Positions 24,264 through 29,970 of a stretch of DNA of 64,000 nt are shown here, one piece after another (position 1 is the first letter of the stretch; the number at the start of each line of letters is the position of its first letter). This DNA is from Sphaerisporangium album. Lineage in GTDB: Bacteria > Actinomycetota > Actinomycetes > Streptosporangiales > Streptosporangiaceae. Made by a program: the position numbers and the translations under genes. Under the pieces are notes generated by a model, which was not told the origin of the DNA, ran no database searches, and saw only the letters and a program-made list of their open reading frames with translations. The DNA lies in assembly GCF_003323745.1 (NCBI RefSeq), contig NZ_QOIL01000025.1, positions 51,200-115,199 of the forward strand, given 5' to 3'.

Positions 24264-25295
24264 ATGACCATGGTCGAGATGGAACCGGCCGAACACCTGG
24301 CCACTGGAGAGCGGTGTTCGTCGGCGCAGTTGTGGGACGTCCTGGTGGACCGGCTGCCCGTGGAACGCGTGCCGATCGCGTCGATACGCGCGGCCGACTC
24401 GCCGCGGCTGGCCGGCGAGAGCGCGGAACACGCCCGGTTGCTGGCGCAGTCGGACGAGATCCTGCCGCCGATCATCGTGCACCGGCGGACGATGCGCGTC
24501 ATCGACGGAATGCACCGGCTGAAGGCGGCCGAGCTGAGAAACCAGCACGAGATCGACGTGCGGTTCTTCGACGGCGACGAGGACGAGGTGTTCGTGCTCG
24601 CCGTCCGGGCGAACACCAGGCACGGCCTGCCGTTGACGCACGCGGACCGGACGGCCGCGGCGACGCGCATCGTCCGGTCGCACCCGCAGTGGTCGGACCG
24701 GATGATCGCGGGCACCACGGGGCTGTCGCCGAAGACGGTGGGCGGCATACGCCGGCGTCTGACCGAAGAGCTTCCCCAGATGAACCTGCGGCTCGGCCAT
24801 GACGGCAGGATGCGTCCCGTCGACAGCGCGGAGGGCCGCAGGCTGGCGGCCAAGTTCATCGTGGAGAACCCCGAGGCGACGCTGCGGCAGATCGCCAAGG
24901 CCGTGGGCGTCTCGCTCGCGACGGCCCGTGACGTGCGCAATCGGGTCCGCCGTGGTGAGAGCCCCATGCTGCCCAAGCGCGGGGAACGCGCGGACGGCCC
25001 CGTGGCCGCCGAGCCGCGCGAGGAGGCGGCGGTGGAACGGCCCGCGGGCGACCGATCTCCCGGGATGGCGCGCATCATGCCGATCCTGAAGAGGGACCCC
25101 TCCATCAGGTACACCGACCAGGGCCGTCTGCTGCTGCGATTACTGGACGCCAACACCATGTTGGGTCCCGACCAGTGGAACAGCCTTATCGAGAACGTGC
25201 CGCCGCATTGCAGGGAGCTGGTCGCGAACGCCGCCCGGGAGTGCGCGGAGGTCTGGCGGCAGGTCGCGCAGCAGATGCGGAACCGCGCCGGCTGA
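24264..25295 (+). CDS. StrR-like ParB-domain pathway activator
   Basis: 343 aa from ATG at 24264, with GAGGAGG upstream. Residues about 30-115 form a ParB/Srx-like domain with I-I-V-H-R-R-T and V-I-D-G-M-H-R-L-K-A-A. This is followed by a first HTH (A-G-T-T-G-L-S-P-K-T-V) and a second HTH-like segment near residue 210 (L-R-Q-I-A-K-A-V-G-V-S). This architecture is that of StrR, Bbr and Tei15*, pathway-specific activators of antibiotic gene clusters. The genes from 25363 to 29970 are the obvious targets, and a site with StrR geometry lies between them at 26768-26796. Confidence 0.85.
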   Translation: MTMVEMEPAEHLATGERCSSAQLWDVLVDRLPVERVPIASIRAADSPRLAGESAEHARLLAQSDEILPPIIVHRRTMRVIDGMHRLKAAELRNQHEIDVRFFDGDEDEVFVLAVRANTRHGLPLTHADRTAAATRIVRSHPQWSDRMIAGTTGLSPKTVGGIRRRLTEELPQMNLRLGHDGRMRPVDSAEGRRLAAKFIVENPEATLRQIAKAVGVSLATARDVRNRVRRGESPMLPKRGERADGPVAAEPREEAAVERPAGDRSPGMARIMPILKRDPSIRYTDQGRLLLRLLDANTMLGPDQWNSLIENVPPHCRELVANAARECAEVWRQVAQQMRNRAG

Positions 25296-25362
25296 GACCT
25301 CCCCGTCCCCCAGAGGGGCATGCTCGTGGCCCCGCCGGCGCCGACGCCCGTGCGACGGCGCG

Positions 25363-26592
25363 TCAGACGAGGAAGCTGATCTCCCGCGGATCCCGCCCGA
25401 CCAGGGCCCGGCCGTGGACCTGCTGCGGGATCCCCATGCCGAACCCGGCGTGCCTGCCGCCGACGTTGACGTCGCGCCAGATGCGCTGGAGCGGGCTCGA
25501 CTCGTCGAACGCCGAGGTGCCGTACGCGGTGACCAGGATGTCGACCGCCTCGCGGCACTGCCGGGCGACGTAGGTCGCGTCCATGCGGACGCGGGCGCGG
25601 GTCTCCAGGTCCGCGTTCACCTTGGCGCGCGCGAACTCGTCGATCGTGTCGGCGACGCGCCGCGCGTGCATCCGCGCGGTGTCGATCTTCATGGCCGCCT
25701 CGCTCAGGTCGAGTTGCAGCGTCGGCGACTCGGCCTGGCTGGCGTAGGTGGACCCGGCGACGGGACGGTCGTGCGCCCGCTCGCGCACGTACGCGAACGC
25801 CGCCTCGGCGCCGCCGACGAGCGAGCCGATCACCGCGAGCGAGAAGACGCCGGTCAGGCTGTTGCGGTACAGGTGGCCCTCGTCGACCAGGCCGTCGGTC
25901 TCGCCGTTGAGAACCGGCGCGTACGGAAGCAGGCGGTGCCGGGGGACGGCCACGCGGTCGGCGACCACCGTGTTGCTGCCGGTGCCGCGCATGCCGACGA
26001 AGAACCAGGTGTCCTCGACGTCCACCTCGTCGCGGCGCAGCAGCGCGATGTGCACGGACGGCCTGCCCGCCTCGGTGGGGACCGCGACGAGGACGCCGAT
26101 CCAGTCGGAGTGCAGGGAGCCGGACGCGTAGGCCCACCGGCCGCTGAGGACGACCCCCTCCCCGGTCTCCTCCACCGACCGGGACGGCAGGCCGAGCACC
26201 AGCGCGATCCGCGCGTCCCGGTTCGTCCCCCACACCTCCTCCTGGGCGCGGTGGGGGAACAGGGAGACGACGAAGCCGCCGGCGTTGAGCAGACCGGTGA
26301 CCCACGAGGCCGAGCAGCAGCCGCGGCCGAGCTCCGAGGTGACCGCGAGCAGCGTGCGCGTGCCGGTCTCGTGACCGCCGAACCGCGCCGGCGTCAGCAG
26401 CCGCGTCAGGCCCGCGCCGGTGATCTTCTCGACGACGGCGTCGGTGAGACGGCGGGAACGGTCGCATTCCGCGGCGTCCGCCCATAAAGGCTCGCGCAGG
26501 GCGGCGGCCCGGCCCACGAGTTCCTCATGGCCGGGGAGGGGAACGCCCGCCGCGCCGCCGCCTGGGATTTCGGCGCCCGTCGGATTCTCCAT
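25363..26592 (-). CDS. Acyl-CoA dehydrogenase-fold flavin monooxygenase (class D-like)
   Basis: 409 aa from ATG at 26592 (AGGAAGGA upstream). Three-part acyl-CoA dehydrogenase fold with the type 2 C-terminal domain used by flavin-dependent hydroxylases such as HsaA or DszC. Visible features are S-G-R-W-A-Y-A-S-G in the middle domain, a V-G-M-R-G-T-G-S-N-T turn, and the late Y-G-T-S-A-F-D-E-S-S-P-L-Q-R-I-W-R-D helix. I do not see the catalytic Glu of true dehydrogenases in its usual place, which favours hydroxylation or N-oxidation. It needs reduced flavin from a separate reductase. It is divergent from the 27067 operon across the StrR-like site. Confidence 0.75.
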   Translation of the reverse strand: MENPTGAEIPGGGAAGVPLPGHEELVGRAAALREPLWADAAECDRSRRLTDAVVEKITGAGLTRLLTPARFGGHETGTRTLLAVTSELGRGCCSASWVTGLLNAGGFVVSLFPHRAQEEVWGTNRDARIALVLGLPSRSVEETGEGVVLSGRWAYASGSLHSDWIGVLVAVPTEAGRPSVHIALLRRDEVDVEDTWFFVGMRGTGSNTVVADRVAVPRHRLLPYAPVLNGETDGLVDEGHLYRNSLTGVFSLAVIGSLVGGAEAAFAYVRERAHDRPVAGSTYASQAESPTLQLDLSEAAMKIDTARMHARRVADTIDEFARAKVNADLETRARVRMDATYVARQCREAVDILVTAYGTSAFDESSPLQRIWRDVNVGGRHAGFGMGIPQQVHGRALVGRDPREISFLV

Positions 26593-27066
26593 GAGCTCAT
26601 GTTCCTTCCTGGCCGGGATCGACGGAAAAAGCTAACACGGCCGTATGGGCGCGAATACGGCGACGCGGGCGCGGGGTAATGGCAACGCGCACGACGAGGG
26701 TACGTTGTCGGGGAGGCGTGCGAATACGCCGTGCCGGACGGTGTGAATCCGCGCCGGGCGCGGGTACGTCCAACCGAGGAGAATCCTCGTTCGAACCTCG
26801 CGGCCGCGCGCCCTGCCGGATCGCCCGCAGGTCCGCGCCGTCGGCCGGTCCTTCGCGGTCCCGGGCGTTCGCGCCGTCCATGTCCTCGTCCCCCGAACAC
26901 GCGCCCGGGGTGTCACAGTGGCTGCGTCACGGAGCCCTGCCCGCCGAAATCGATCCACCGCGCCCGCCTTACGTCCCCAGGCGGCGGACGGGCCCGCATT
27001 GTTCGCGCACCGGGACCGTGTTCCGCGCGTGCGTGGCCCAAGAAAAGACAAGGAGGGCGGGATGCC
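26593..27066. promoter_or_regulatory. Divergent promoter region of the putative natural-product locus
   Basis: About 475 bp between the monooxygenase gene and the rightward four-gene operon. It contains the 29-bp StrR-like site at 26768-26796 and a nested CGAGGA-GAA-TCCTCG dyad (26775-26789). No ORF with good codon bias is seen. Confidence 0.5.
26768..26796. promoter_or_regulatory. Candidate StrR-family operator
   Basis: Left arm GTCCAACCG, 11 bp, right arm CGTTCGAAC. The StrR consensus as I recall it is GTTCGActG-N11-CagTCGAAC. Arm length and spacing are the same (9-11-9), with 6/9 and 7/9 matches. The 29 bp are also an imperfect palindrome with 10 of 13 pairs. Confidence 0.5.
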
Positions 27067-27420
27067 ATGAGCCCGGTCGACTGGACGGTCGTCGCGAATC
27101 GCATTTCCTTCGTTCCGATCGGGTTCGGCAGGCCGTCCGTGGACCGGCGGACCGCCCGCGACATTCTCGGGCGCGACGACGACGGCCGTCCGAAGGCCGT
27201 TGACGTGACCACCGCCCAGCTCGCGGCCCGGCTCTCGCCCGGCACCCGGGCGTTCCGGGAGCTGTGCGCAGGCTCGGCGTTCAACCGCGTCGTGCTCTGC
27301 GACGCCCCCGCGGACGAGCCGCTCGCCGCGCACGCCTGCGGGGGCGACCCGGCACGGGTCGTGGCCCGCTCCGACATCCGCGCCGCGCACGCCGGGACGG
27401 GAGGGACCGCCAATGTCTGA
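27067..27420 (+). CDS. Unknown 117-aa protein, first gene of the operon
   Basis: From ATG at 27067 after AAGGAGG (27049-27055); its last eight bases overlap the start of the next gene. No signal peptide or membrane segment. The sequence opens W-T-V-V-A-N-R-I-S-F-V-P-I-G-F-G and has a mid segment F-R-E-L-C-A-G-S-A-F-N-R-V-V. I recognise no family and no phosphopantetheine D-S-L site, so it is not an obvious carrier protein. The overlap with the hydrolase implies a shared role. Confidence 0.65.
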   Translation: MSPVDWTVVANRISFVPIGFGRPSVDRRTARDILGRDDDGRPKAVDVTTAQLAARLSPGTRAFRELCAGSAFNRVVLCDAPADEPLAAHACGGDPARVVARSDIRAAHAGTGGTANV

Positions 27421-28054
27421 GACGCCGGATCCGCGCCGCTGCGCGCTTCTCGCGGTCAACGTCCAGAACGACTTCACGCGCCACAACTCCCTGCACGCCC
27501 TGCCCGGCACCGACGAGATCGTCCCGGTCATGGGCGCGGTCGTGGACGGCTTCCGGGCGCTGAGGCTCCCGGTGGTCCACATGGTCCGGCTCTACCACGC
27601 GGACGGCTCCAACGCCGAGGTCACCCGGCGCTCCCTCGTCGCCGCCGGCGTGCCGGTCGTCCGGCCCGGTACGGAGGGCAGCGAGGTGCGGCCCGAGCTG
27701 CAGCCGCCCGACGGGTTCCTGCTCGACCACGAGGCGCTGCTCGAAGGGAAGGCCCAGCCCGTCGCGCCCCGCGAGTGGGTGATGTACAAGCCGCGGTGGG
27801 GAGCCTTCTACGACACCGGGCTCGCCGCCCACCTGCGCGCCCTCGACGTCGACACGGTCGCCGTCATCGGGACCAACTTCCCCAACTGCCCGAGGACGAC
27901 CATCTACGAGGCGAGCGAGCGGGACTTCCACGTCGTGGTCGTCTCGGACGCCATCTCCCGCATCTACCCCCGGGGCCTGGACGAGTGCGCGAGCATCGGC
28001 GCCCGTGTGCTGACCTCGGACCGGCTTCTGGACTGGCTGCGCGCCGCCCGATGA
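27413..28054 (+). CDS. Isochorismatase-like cysteine hydrolase
   Basis: 213 aa from ATG at 27413, overlapping the preceding stop by eight bases. The catalytic triad of the superfamily is in place: D20 in V-Q-N-D-F, K126 in Y-K-P-R-W, and C159 in F-P-N-C-P-R. Members split C-N or ether bonds (nicotinamidase, N-carbamoyl amidase, isochorismatase). Substrate is not predictable, but the operon context suggests an amide or ether bond in a small metabolite. Confidence 0.88.
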   Translation: MSETPDPRRCALLAVNVQNDFTRHNSLHALPGTDEIVPVMGAVVDGFRALRLPVVHMVRLYHADGSNAEVTRRSLVAAGVPVVRPGTEGSEVRPELQPPDGFLLDHEALLEGKAQPVAPREWVMYKPRWGAFYDTGLAAHLRALDVDTVAVIGTNFPNCPRTTIYEASERDFHVVVVSDAISRIYPRGLDECASIGARVLTSDRLLDWLRAAR

Positions 28055-28097
28055 CCTCCGGCCCGCCGCCCCTCACCCCGGCCACCGAAGGATCCAG

Positions 28098-28185
28098 CCG
28101 ATGACGACGACCCCCGCCCCGGACCCTCCCGCGCACGACCAGCACCCGCTTGCCGGAACGGACGGTGACCCGATGACGACGACCC
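28098..28185 (+). repeat. 16-bp direct repeat spanning two possible start codons
   Basis: CCGATGACGACGACCC occurs at 28098-28113 and again at 28170-28185, each containing an in-frame ATG of the ligase gene (M-T-T-T at residues 1 and 25). A local duplication has copied the translation start. Confidence 0.75.
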
Positions 28186-29033
28186 GCGGCGTGAACGACC
28201 GGGTGGGCGACCGGGGGAACGAGGGCCTGGACGTGCTCGGCCCCGACGAGCTTCGGCTGCTGCGGGAGTTCGACGCGCTGATCCTGTCCTGGGCCGACGA
28301 GGCCGGAGCCGTCGAGCGCCGGTACCCGTTCCTGCTGCGGCCGGACTTCCTCGACGGCGTCGGCCACTTCCAGGAGTTCCCCCACCTCAGCCTGCCGGTG
28401 TCGGCGGCCGACCCCGAGCGGCTGCTGAAGTCGCTGCGGATGGCCGAGCGTCCGCTGGGGGCGGTGCCGGCCGAGGCGCTCGACGACGCCCGGTACGTCC
28501 TGCCGTCGGCCGCCTGCCACTCGATCTACCAGAGCCTGGCCGGGCAGGCCGTGCCGGGCGAGGGCGCCGTGCACACCACCCTCGCGACCTGCTTCCGCAT
28601 CGAGGAGCGGTACGGGGGCCCGCGCCGGCCGCTCGCGCTCTCCATGCGCGAGATCGTGCACGTGGGGACGGCCGAGGGGGCCAAGGAGCACGTCGCCCGC
28701 TCCAAGGAGCGGGTGCTGGAGCTGGCCGCGCGGCTCGGCCTGGAGATGAGGACCGAGGTCGCGACCGACCCGTTCTTCGACAGGACCTCCTCGCGTGCCA
28801 TCATGCAGCTCCTGTTCCCCGACAAGGAGGAGTTCGTCGTCGGCGGCCTGGTCGTCGGCTCGGTCGACCACCAAGGCGATCTCTTCGGGAAGCGCTGCGG
28901 CATCCGGCTTCCGGACGGCACGGCCGCGCGCACCGGCTGCGTCGCGTTCCACCTGGAGCGCTGGGTCCACGTCCTGACGGCCCGGTTCGGCGACGCGAGC
29001 GCGGCCGCCGACGCGATCCTCGAACTACGGTGA
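28101..29033 (+). CDS. Amino acid:[carrier protein] ligase-like enzyme (class II aaRS homologue)
   Basis: 310 aa from ATG at 28101 (GAAGGA upstream); a second in-frame ATG at 28173 has its own near-identical context. The catalytic core resembles atypical seryl-tRNA synthetase without a tRNA-binding arm. Motif 2 is C-F-R-I-E-E with R-E-I-V-H-V-G-T; motif 3 is around A-F-H-L-E-R-W. Zinc ligands of this family can be assigned to C139, E184 and C280; the 45-residue C-to-E spacing fits the characterised Bradyrhizobium enzyme as I recall it. Relatives activate an amino acid and load it on a stand-alone carrier protein. No carrier gene is seen nearby. Confidence 0.75.
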   Translation: MTTTPAPDPPAHDQHPLAGTDGDPMTTTRGVNDRVGDRGNEGLDVLGPDELRLLREFDALILSWADEAGAVERRYPFLLRPDFLDGVGHFQEFPHLSLPVSAADPERLLKSLRMAERPLGAVPAEALDDARYVLPSAACHSIYQSLAGQAVPGEGAVHTTLATCFRIEERYGGPRRPLALSMREIVHVGTAEGAKEHVARSKERVLELAARLGLEMRTEVATDPFFDRTSSRAIMQLLFPDKEEFVVGGLVVGSVDHQGDLFGKRCGIRLPDGTAARTGCVAFHLERWVHVLTARFGDASAAADAILELR

Positions 29034-29112
29034 GGCGATGCGGGCGAGCCGGCCGCGTCCCCGGATCGACCACGCACCTGCTCGTCGCCATTCCCACCGC
29101 GGAGGGGACCCG

Positions 29113-29970
29113 ATGATCGACCTGACCGCCGACGACGGCACGATAGAGACCGGCAGGGTGGAGGTGAGCCCCGGCGTCGAGCTGCACTACGAGCGGCGCG
29201 GGGGCGGGCCCGACGTCGTCCTGGTCAACGACTTCCTCATGGAGAGCAGCTCGTGGAGGCCCTTCACCTCCCGGTTGCAGAACGAGTGCCGCCTGCTGAG
29301 CTACGACCTGCGCGGCCAGGGCGCGTCCTCCCGCGCCGACGCCGTCTGGGCCGACCACGTCGCGGACCTCACCGCGCTGCTGGACCGGCTCGGCGTCAGG
29401 GAGGCGTTCCTGCTCGGCAGCTCGTCCGCGGCCATGCTCTGCCGCGACTTCGCCCTGGCGCACCCGGAGCGGACCCGGGGCCTGCTCCTCGCGGGCCCGG
29501 CGCTGAGCCCGTTCGGCAAGGGCCGCATCCGCCGGATCGTCACCTCCTGGATCAGGACGCTGGACGGCCTGGGGCTGCCGGCCCTGTTCGACCAGCTCTA
29601 CCCGCTGATCTGGGGCGACTACAGCGCGGAGGCGGCGGGCATGACCGGGTTCCTCGGCCGCAAGCAGGCGTTCCTGGCGCTCCACACGCCCGAGACGGTC
29701 AGGACGGGAATGACGGTCTCGCTGATGGCCGAAAACGACCCCGCGCTGCTCGCCGGGGTCCTGTGCCCGGTGCTGGTGGTGGCGGGGGACGACGACTTCG
29801 TTCTCGGAGTCGGCGCGGCCGAGCGGCTCGCCGAGCTGTTCCCGAGGGGCCGTGCGGTGATCTTCCCCCGCACCGGGCACCTGCCCTTCATCGAACAGCC
29901 CCACCGGTTCCAGGAGGAGGCCGCCGCGTTCGTCGCCGAGGTCGTGAAGGAAGGACGACCCGGCGACTGA
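29113..29970 (+). CDS. Alpha/beta hydrolase
   Basis: 285 aa from ATG at 29113, with GGAGGGG five bases upstream. Classic fold: strand V-V-L-V-N-D-F, D-L-R-G-Q-G-A-S-S motif, nucleophile elbow G102-S-S104-S-A, acid near G-D-D-D-F and catalytic H256 in T-G-H-L-P-F. The oxyanion motif normally H-G is N-D here, and the elbow lacks the final Gly, so it is an unusual member. Last gene of the 27067-29970 operon; it could release or transfer an acyl product. Confidence 0.8.
   Translation: MIDLTADDGTIETGRVEVSPGVELHYERRGGGPDVVLVNDFLMESSSWRPFTSRLQNECRLLSYDLRGQGASSRADAVWADHVADLTALLDRLGVREAFLLGSSSAAMLCRDFALAHPERTRGLLLAGPALSPFGKGRIRRIVTSWIRTLDGLGLPALFDQLYPLIWGDYSAEAAGMTGFLGRKQAFLALHTPETVRTGMTVSLMAENDPALLAGVLCPVLVVAGDDDFVLGVGAAERLAELFPRGRAVIFPRTGHLPFIEQPHRFQEEAAAFVAEVVKEGRPGD

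Follow-up and report, generated by a model that had tools for sequence, protein, structure and literature searches.

The locus at positions 24264 to 29970 of a 64-kb stretch of Sphaerisporangium album DNA (the window, meaning the whole 64,000-nucleotide stretch analysed) raises the question of what an amino acid:[carrier protein] ligase-like enzyme is doing in a gene set that encodes no carrier protein. The locus consists of a regulator gene, a divergently transcribed monooxygenase gene and a run of four genes encoding a 117-aa protein, an isochorismatase-like cysteine hydrolase, the ligase homologue and an alpha/beta hydrolase. An earlier note on this sequence had described these as six genes that look like a minimal natural-product pathway. 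All six open reading frames are indeed present (as called with a simple GC-frame script rather than a standard predictor), with a coding-type G+C content at third codon positions (GC3) of 0.91-0.96, and their families are those of natural-product genes. A complete minimal pathway is not supported, however: the carrier protein and an AurF-type diiron N-oxygenase are missing, the 117-aa protein is a remnant that has lost the Cys and His presumed to be catalytic, and several near-invariant residues are changed in the ligase. We consider it likely that the locus is a reduced descendant of an AurF/carrier protein/ligase operon whose ligase most likely no longer loads a carrier, and that what is left reflects either a residual, altered function or early decay; the descendant is probably repurposed or decaying.

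By sequence, the ligase (28101-29033, forward strand) is a homologue of the glycine:[carrier protein] ligase Bll0957 of Bradyrhizobium (PDB 3mey, 3mf1 and 4h2s), a relative of seryl-tRNA synthetase and the best match in both sequence and fold. It matches NCBIfam NF005479 at 97.2 bits, under the curated cut-off of 357, and the profile of structure 3mey at E 1e-16; the best fold match of its AlphaFold model is 4h2s, at about 26% identity (mean predicted local distance difference test score, pLDDT, 77.5, with residues 1-43 and 170-177 below 50). These three matches confirm the ligase-like identity proposed in the earlier note. The protein has the catalytic core of a class II aminoacyl-tRNA synthetase (aaRS) and no tRNA-binding domain. 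C139, E184, C280, R166 and E168 are invariant in an 11-row alignment that includes the window ligase and are shared with Bll0957; we take the first three to be the likely zinc ligands and R166 and E168 to be the Arg and Glu of class II motif 2. The genome yielded this one ligase gene and no other. Its start may be 28173 instead of 28101, since alignments with the four nearest homologues begin at 28173-28218.

Homologues of the ligase were found in 42 of 345 genomes of the order, the window's own included, and wide neighbourhoods were obtained for 20 of the other 41. A further 80 loci came from named genomes, the top 80 of 247, selected with two conserved peptide patterns; nine of the resulting 100 were the same contigs duplicated, leaving 91 distinct loci. 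For two of these, L117 and L120 from Chloroflexi, the GC-based caller failed and counting relied on the six-frame profile. In 88 of the 91 loci a carrier protein of about 84 aa is encoded no more than 6 kb from the ligase (77 of the 78 with flanks of at least 3 kb on both sides), and an AurF-type gene is found at that distance in 83. A transglutaminase-like gene that we call F6 is an optional part of the cassette, present within 6 kb in 37 of the 91. With stricter cut-offs the counts are 85 for the carrier (75 bits), 82 for AurF (150 bits) and 37 for F6; the original carrier cut-off of 25 bits is loose, the divergent loci L056-L058 scoring 27-49 bits and L114, L127 and L130 giving no score. 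Since members of these same loci went into the profiles for carrier, AurF and F6, the counts characterise the family without testing it independently. L127, from a Rhodospirillales metagenome-assembled genome, encodes a relative of the ligase on a long branch (0.86) in the tree described below, and the 6 kb around it gave no carrier and no AurF.

Neither partner was found in the 64-kb window when all six frames were searched at maximum HMMER sensitivity, and the idea of a hidden carrier or AurF gene there was rejected. Across the whole genome the best match to a profile of nine partner carriers scores 30.7 bits, versus 94-128 bits in all six control genomes (the control at 128 bits supplied one of the nine profile rows; the other five score 94-106 bits). 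The profile search of the assembled genome thus found no dedicated carrier of the ligase-partner family, and the earlier note's remark on a missing carrier protein holds for the locus and, as far as this family goes, for the assembled genome. The description of the set as free of non-ribosomal peptide synthetases (NRPS) and polyketide synthases (PKS) applies to the locus only, since 66 PP-binding matches occur elsewhere in the genome in other settings, often in long frames of NRPS/PKS size. It also has two AurF-family genes, both far from the locus, beside which no partner-type carrier or ligase was recognised. One small carrier gene of this genome (L146, C1:541500-560500) sits, as judged by eye, in a run with AMP-binding, acyl-CoA-dehydrogenase-like, transglutaminase-like, cupin and pseudouridine-glycosidase-like genes, which may form a small natural-product cluster of their own.

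In a working minimal pathway of the kind suggested in the earlier note, the ligase would load an amino acid on a carrier encoded elsewhere, the acyl-CoA dehydrogenase (ACAD)-fold monooxygenase would oxidise it and the hydrolases would release it. The retained fold and zinc-site residues of the ligase and the presence of other small carrier proteins in the genome are in favour of this pathway, and ACAD-fold enzymes can use carrier-bound substrates. We nonetheless think it unlikely: where true partners reach 94-128 bits, the top three carriers of this genome reach 26-31, and two of these three lie in clusters with FkbH-like genes (by eye); the ligase is altered at sites conserved in all 29 relatives found by similarity; and XiaF and HsaA, the nearest solved kin of the monooxygenase, are presumably aromatic hydroxylases.

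The 117-aa protein (27067-27420, forward strand), listed as unknown in the earlier note, corresponds to the first gene of AurF/carrier/ligase clusters such as L077 of Actinomadura mexicana and L085 of Nonomuraea soli. The F6 profile matches it at positions 8-40 and then 254-324, in order and in one frame, for a total of 72.9 bits (the first piece being weak by itself, at 7.3 bits); about 213 F6 positions are absent, and the deletion is in frame. C175, H212 and D228, which we presume to be catalytic, are invariant in 32 of 32 F6 proteins; D228 is kept in the window, while C175 and H212 fall in the deleted part, so that no intact Cys-His-Asp enzyme is encoded. Because the two pieces are in frame and the Cys and His lie in the missing part, we interpret the gene as an internally deleted remnant and not a new family, and a reading as a precursor peptide was dropped on the alignment. 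The name transglutaminase-like reflects the fact that 7 of 20 F6 proteins match Transglut_core with E values of 1 or less, the lowest being 5e-6; the PDB entry closest to an F6 structure model with pLDDT 90 is that of a putative cysteine protease, with an E value of 3e-6 and a modest template modelling (TM) score of only 0.40.

Where relatives have the oxygenase and carrier genes, the window has the gene for the isochorismatase-like hydrolase (27413-28054, forward strand; PF00857, E 3e-24). It is hardly credible that an assembly or annotation artefact conceals the missing pair. The genome is in 62 contigs, which gives some room for such an error, but the locus lies within a contig of 148.7 kb, there are no ambiguous bases between the monooxygenase and alpha/beta hydrolase genes, and an intact hydrolase gene, sharing 8 bp with the 117-aa gene, occupies the site of the missing pair; the deletion within the 117-aa gene, moreover, preserves the reading frame.

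The ligase itself has changed at positions that its relatives keep. After frames shorter than 250 aa were dropped, 98 ligases remained, of which 89, including that of the window, are distinct; compared with the other 88, the window ligase departs at 13 of the 54 columns conserved in at least 92%, the next worst at 8, and its four nearest kin at 0-1. This set was partly picked by the two peptide patterns, one of which spans H258-R265, and the count is biased at those columns; the test was therefore repeated on the 29 ligases, overlapping the larger set, whose loci came from whole-protein similarity. Here the window departs at 6 of 36 columns, with L174P, F180L, A251V, N256D, H258Q and G284H. 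F180, A251, N256 and G284 are conserved in 29 of 29 and H258 in 28, and F180, N256 and G284 in 88 of 88 in the larger set; R259, by comparison, is variable (R in 20 of 29). In structure-profile alignments N, H and G at 256, 258 and 284 are common to Bll0957 and an archaeal seryl-tRNA synthetase, so that the window ligase, with D, Q and H, has lost the conserved N-x-H strand and the motif 3 Gly. We take G284H to lie in motif 3, two residues ahead of the E-R pair, in what is normally part of the ATP site of class II synthetases.

Such changes could also mark an enzyme put to a different use, one that still adenylates but transfers the acyl group onto a small molecule, or a non-catalytic binding protein like several aaRS paralogues. 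We regard this as possible but doubtful. The reading frame and GC3 have been maintained while core sites changed, and the tandem second ligase of N. soli also departs at 7 conserved columns; on the other side, G284H affects what is in general part of the ATP site, and any new activity would be conjecture. There is a precedent in HisZ, an aaRS paralogue described in PMC9437257 as lacking adenylation activity. The tandem second ligase of N. soli (L085, 10906-11733; also L040, 9993-10820) is perhaps another ligase that is losing or changing function.

The kinship of the locus is clear from a tree of the 89 ligases, in which that of the window forms a clade with four from Streptomyces at a support of 100/97. 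These are from S. griseoluteus (L062), S. bauhiniae (L061), Streptomyces sp. APSN-46.1 (L059) and S. triticagri (L060), and are its nearest relatives at 56-58% identity; the path from the shared fork is 0.53 for the window ligase and about 0.24-0.31 for the other four. By the earlier note's own criterion, homologues that were scattered and never together would refute its reading; a neighbourhood comparison instead finds monooxygenase, ligase, hydrolase and regulator together in L059, L061 and L062, three of the four. The L060 sequence ends just past the hydrolase, and its 10-kb upstream flank is without the monooxygenase. In the neighbouring outer clade, whose 29 rows represent 28 loci, the arrangement is mostly F6-AurF-carrier-ligase-(nitronate monooxygenase)-hydrolase. 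These 28 loci (L063-L090, from Streptomyces, Micromonospora, Frankia, Saccharopolyspora and others) are a highly conserved operon in their own right, in which the nitronate monooxygenase is usually present, as is a phosphopantetheinyl transferase gene, with often a pair of genes for 86-aa and approximately 900-aa proteins; open-access text searches turned up no product for it. Three loci from the genus of the window (L133/L047, L049 and L050) are a different branch of ligase clusters, having a ligase and carrier but no AurF within 6 kb, together with 3-oxoacyl-[acyl carrier protein] synthase III and flavin adenine dinucleotide (FAD)-dependent oxidoreductase genes and a regulator of the window type.

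From the functions of these families, the parent operon, encoding a transglutaminase-like amide synthase, an AurF N-oxygenase, a carrier protein, an aaRS-like ligase, in some cases a nitronate monooxygenase, and an alpha/beta hydrolase, would act as follows. The ligase would adenylate a small amino acid, probably glycine, as in the solved relative, or another small one, and load it onto the carrier; the diiron enzyme would N-oxygenate the carrier-bound amino acid; and the transglutaminase-like enzyme would transfer the product for release by the alpha/beta hydrolase. In the window this route would be broken at three places. The simplest history that we infer is of an ancestral F6/AurF/carrier/ligase/hydrolase operon from which the window lineage lost AurF, the carrier and the core of F6. 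With oxygenase and carrier lost, the amide synthase reduced to a remnant and invariant core sites altered in the ligase, this enzyme most likely no longer loads a carrier, and may be idle or altered. The genes for the regulator, the monooxygenase, both hydrolases and the ligase are nevertheless intact and probably expressed; the residual chemistry could comprise hydroxylation of an aromatic substrate by the monooxygenase and cleavage of amide or ester bonds by the hydrolases. A more adventurous and, we think, improbable version is that the ligase has been freed from its carrier, the remodelled site handing the acyl group to a soluble acceptor (or binding without catalysis), with the ACAD-fold monooxygenase and cysteine hydrolase replacing the AurF and amide-synthase steps. 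If true, the locus would be a pathway caught in moving from carrier-bound to free-substrate chemistry.

Several observations weigh against a reduced operon whose ligase has ceased to load a carrier. All frames are open, Shine-Dalgarno-like sequences precede the genes, the GC3 of the ligase is 0.97, and its motif 2 Arg/Glu and likely zinc ligands C139, E184 and C280 are retained. When neutral drift to 13 conserved changes was simulated from three relatives, the mean number of stops was 2.1-2.3, 10-12% of runs were without a stop, and GC3 averaged 0.83-0.88 with a maximum of 0.95, compared with the observed 0.97. These results are suggestive only, as the model takes mutation to be unbiased and leaves indels out of account. 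The scarcity of stop-free runs and the failure of GC3 to exceed 0.95 disfavour a plain pseudogene. A carrier of another family, such as one of the three matching at 26-31 bits, could act in trans, and with the genome in 62 contigs at 99.4% completeness a carrier gene could lie in a gap. Moreover, three of the 91 other loci are without a carrier match (two of them, L114 and L130, near a contig end), and in the 29-ligase test L035, a locus truncated at the edge of its contig, has as many deviations as the window (6), albeit with changes and gaps mixed.

Open frames and high GC3 likewise disfavour a long-dead pseudogene, and together with the Shine-Dalgarno-like sequences they suggest that the proteins are probably still made. 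The window ligase has changes at 13 of 54 conserved sites and, against L061, at 99 of 225 others; L060 and L061 differ at 1 of 54 and 72 of 225 respectively; that changes are proportionally fewer at the conserved sites than elsewhere suggests that some constraint on the ligase remains.

Five of the six genes fit recognisable families, the sixth being that of the 117-aa protein. The start of the alpha/beta hydrolase requires correction: this gene (29113-29970, forward strand; PF12697, E 2e-21; thioesterase/esterase type) most likely starts at 29113 and not 29038, with GGAGG ahead of this position and homologues in L059, L061 and L062 aligning from it. Its product is changed at 5 of 65 conserved columns (among 30 others the median is 1 and the maximum 9), and the changed positions 106 and 107 come directly after the presumed nucleophile Ser104, a motif identified by eye. 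The cysteine hydrolase conserves D20, K126 and C159, which we take to be the catalytic triad of isochorismatase-like hydrolases, and is 50 and 48% identical to the hydrolases of two other ligase clusters, L044/L102 and L051. The ACAD-fold, flavin-dependent monooxygenase (25363-26592, reverse strand, divergent from the operon) is of the HsaA/XiaF type: it is related to NCBIfam HsaA over its full length but is not HsaA itself, since it scores 221 bits, below the cut-off of 450, and its nearest solved structure is XiaF (5lvu, E 1e-58). An orthologue at 62-66% identity occupies the same divergent position in L059, L061 and L062; no flavin reductase was recognised by eye beside the window gene, the genome as a whole not having been searched. 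The regulator (24264-25295, forward strand), called StrR-like in the earlier note, is a ParB-like/helix-turn-helix protein with a match to Pfam HTH_23 (E 7e-6) and a weak profile match to ParB-family structures (E only 0.001), and none of five homologues has a Pfam ParBc match; it is 52-60% identical to the regulators of L049, L050, L059, L061, L062 and L133. At E 1e-10, the 91 ligase loci contain matches to the monooxygenase in 3, the regulator in 8, the isochorismatase-like hydrolase in 2 and the alpha/beta hydrolase in 31.

The Streptomyces relatives have a link to phenazine genes that the window does not share. PHZA_PHZB was found in all four of the nearest genomes, on the contig of the cassette's carrier protein, at within about 4 kb of it in L059, L061 and L062 and about 27 kb in S. 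triticagri; in L061 it adjoins the monooxygenase gene, with 3-deoxy-D-arabino-heptulosonate 7-phosphate (DAHP) synthase and isochorismatase genes beyond. The same search, with these four as positive control, gave no match in the window's own genome, and a phenazine pathway there was accordingly rejected. Griseoluteins bear a hydroxyacetyl group (PMC12380601), for which no gene cluster is named in the part of that paper used here. As the cassette of S. griseoluteus JCM 4765 and its relatives (L059, L061 and L062) adjoins PHZA_PHZB, it might make a two-carbon unit from glycine, and our guess from this gene adjacency is that oxidation of a glycyl-carrier gives rise to the hydroxyacetyl group.

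Several known systems resemble the locus in part. It shares ligase and hydrolase families with the actinobacterial clusters of the L077 and L085 type but lacks their AurF, carrier and nitronate monooxygenase, and has a mere remnant of the amide synthase; the phenazine-linked clusters contain its nearest ligases and, in L059, L061 and L062, also the divergent monooxygenase and regulator, but keep a methyltransferase, AurF and carrier, and in those three loci a phosphopantetheinyl transferase. From Bll0957 it differs, apart from the three residues noted above, in having no adjacent carrier. The valanimycin proteins VlmL, VlmA and VlmB likewise combine a serine-class synthetase paralogue with an AurF-like oxidase in a natural-product cluster. 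VlmL charges tRNA, however, whereas the window ligase leaves no space for a tRNA-binding domain, and inspection by eye recognised no transferase of the MprF/VlmA type in the locus. VlmL and VlmB are named in PMC2922099, which in the part used here places a carrier protein, an oxidoreductase with a Rossmann fold and a putative ligase, itself uncharacterised, in the vicinity of a synthetase paralogue, AurF being unnamed there. A search of titles and the beginnings of abstracts in the open-access literature, with subscription papers outside its scope, found no description of an AurF/carrier/aaRS-like ligase cassette.

The ligase family, AurF and ACAD-fold monooxygenases are already known, and the window contains a reduced variant of the cassette that unites ligase, carrier and AurF. 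This reading accounts for the odd occurrence of a ligase without a carrier and names the parts that are missing. It also exposes a widespread, mainly actinobacterial ligase/carrier/AurF cassette, one branch of which shares its contigs with a phenazine gene. Should the ligase of the window still be active, it would offer a natural test of how a carrier-loading enzyme can come to lose its carrier.

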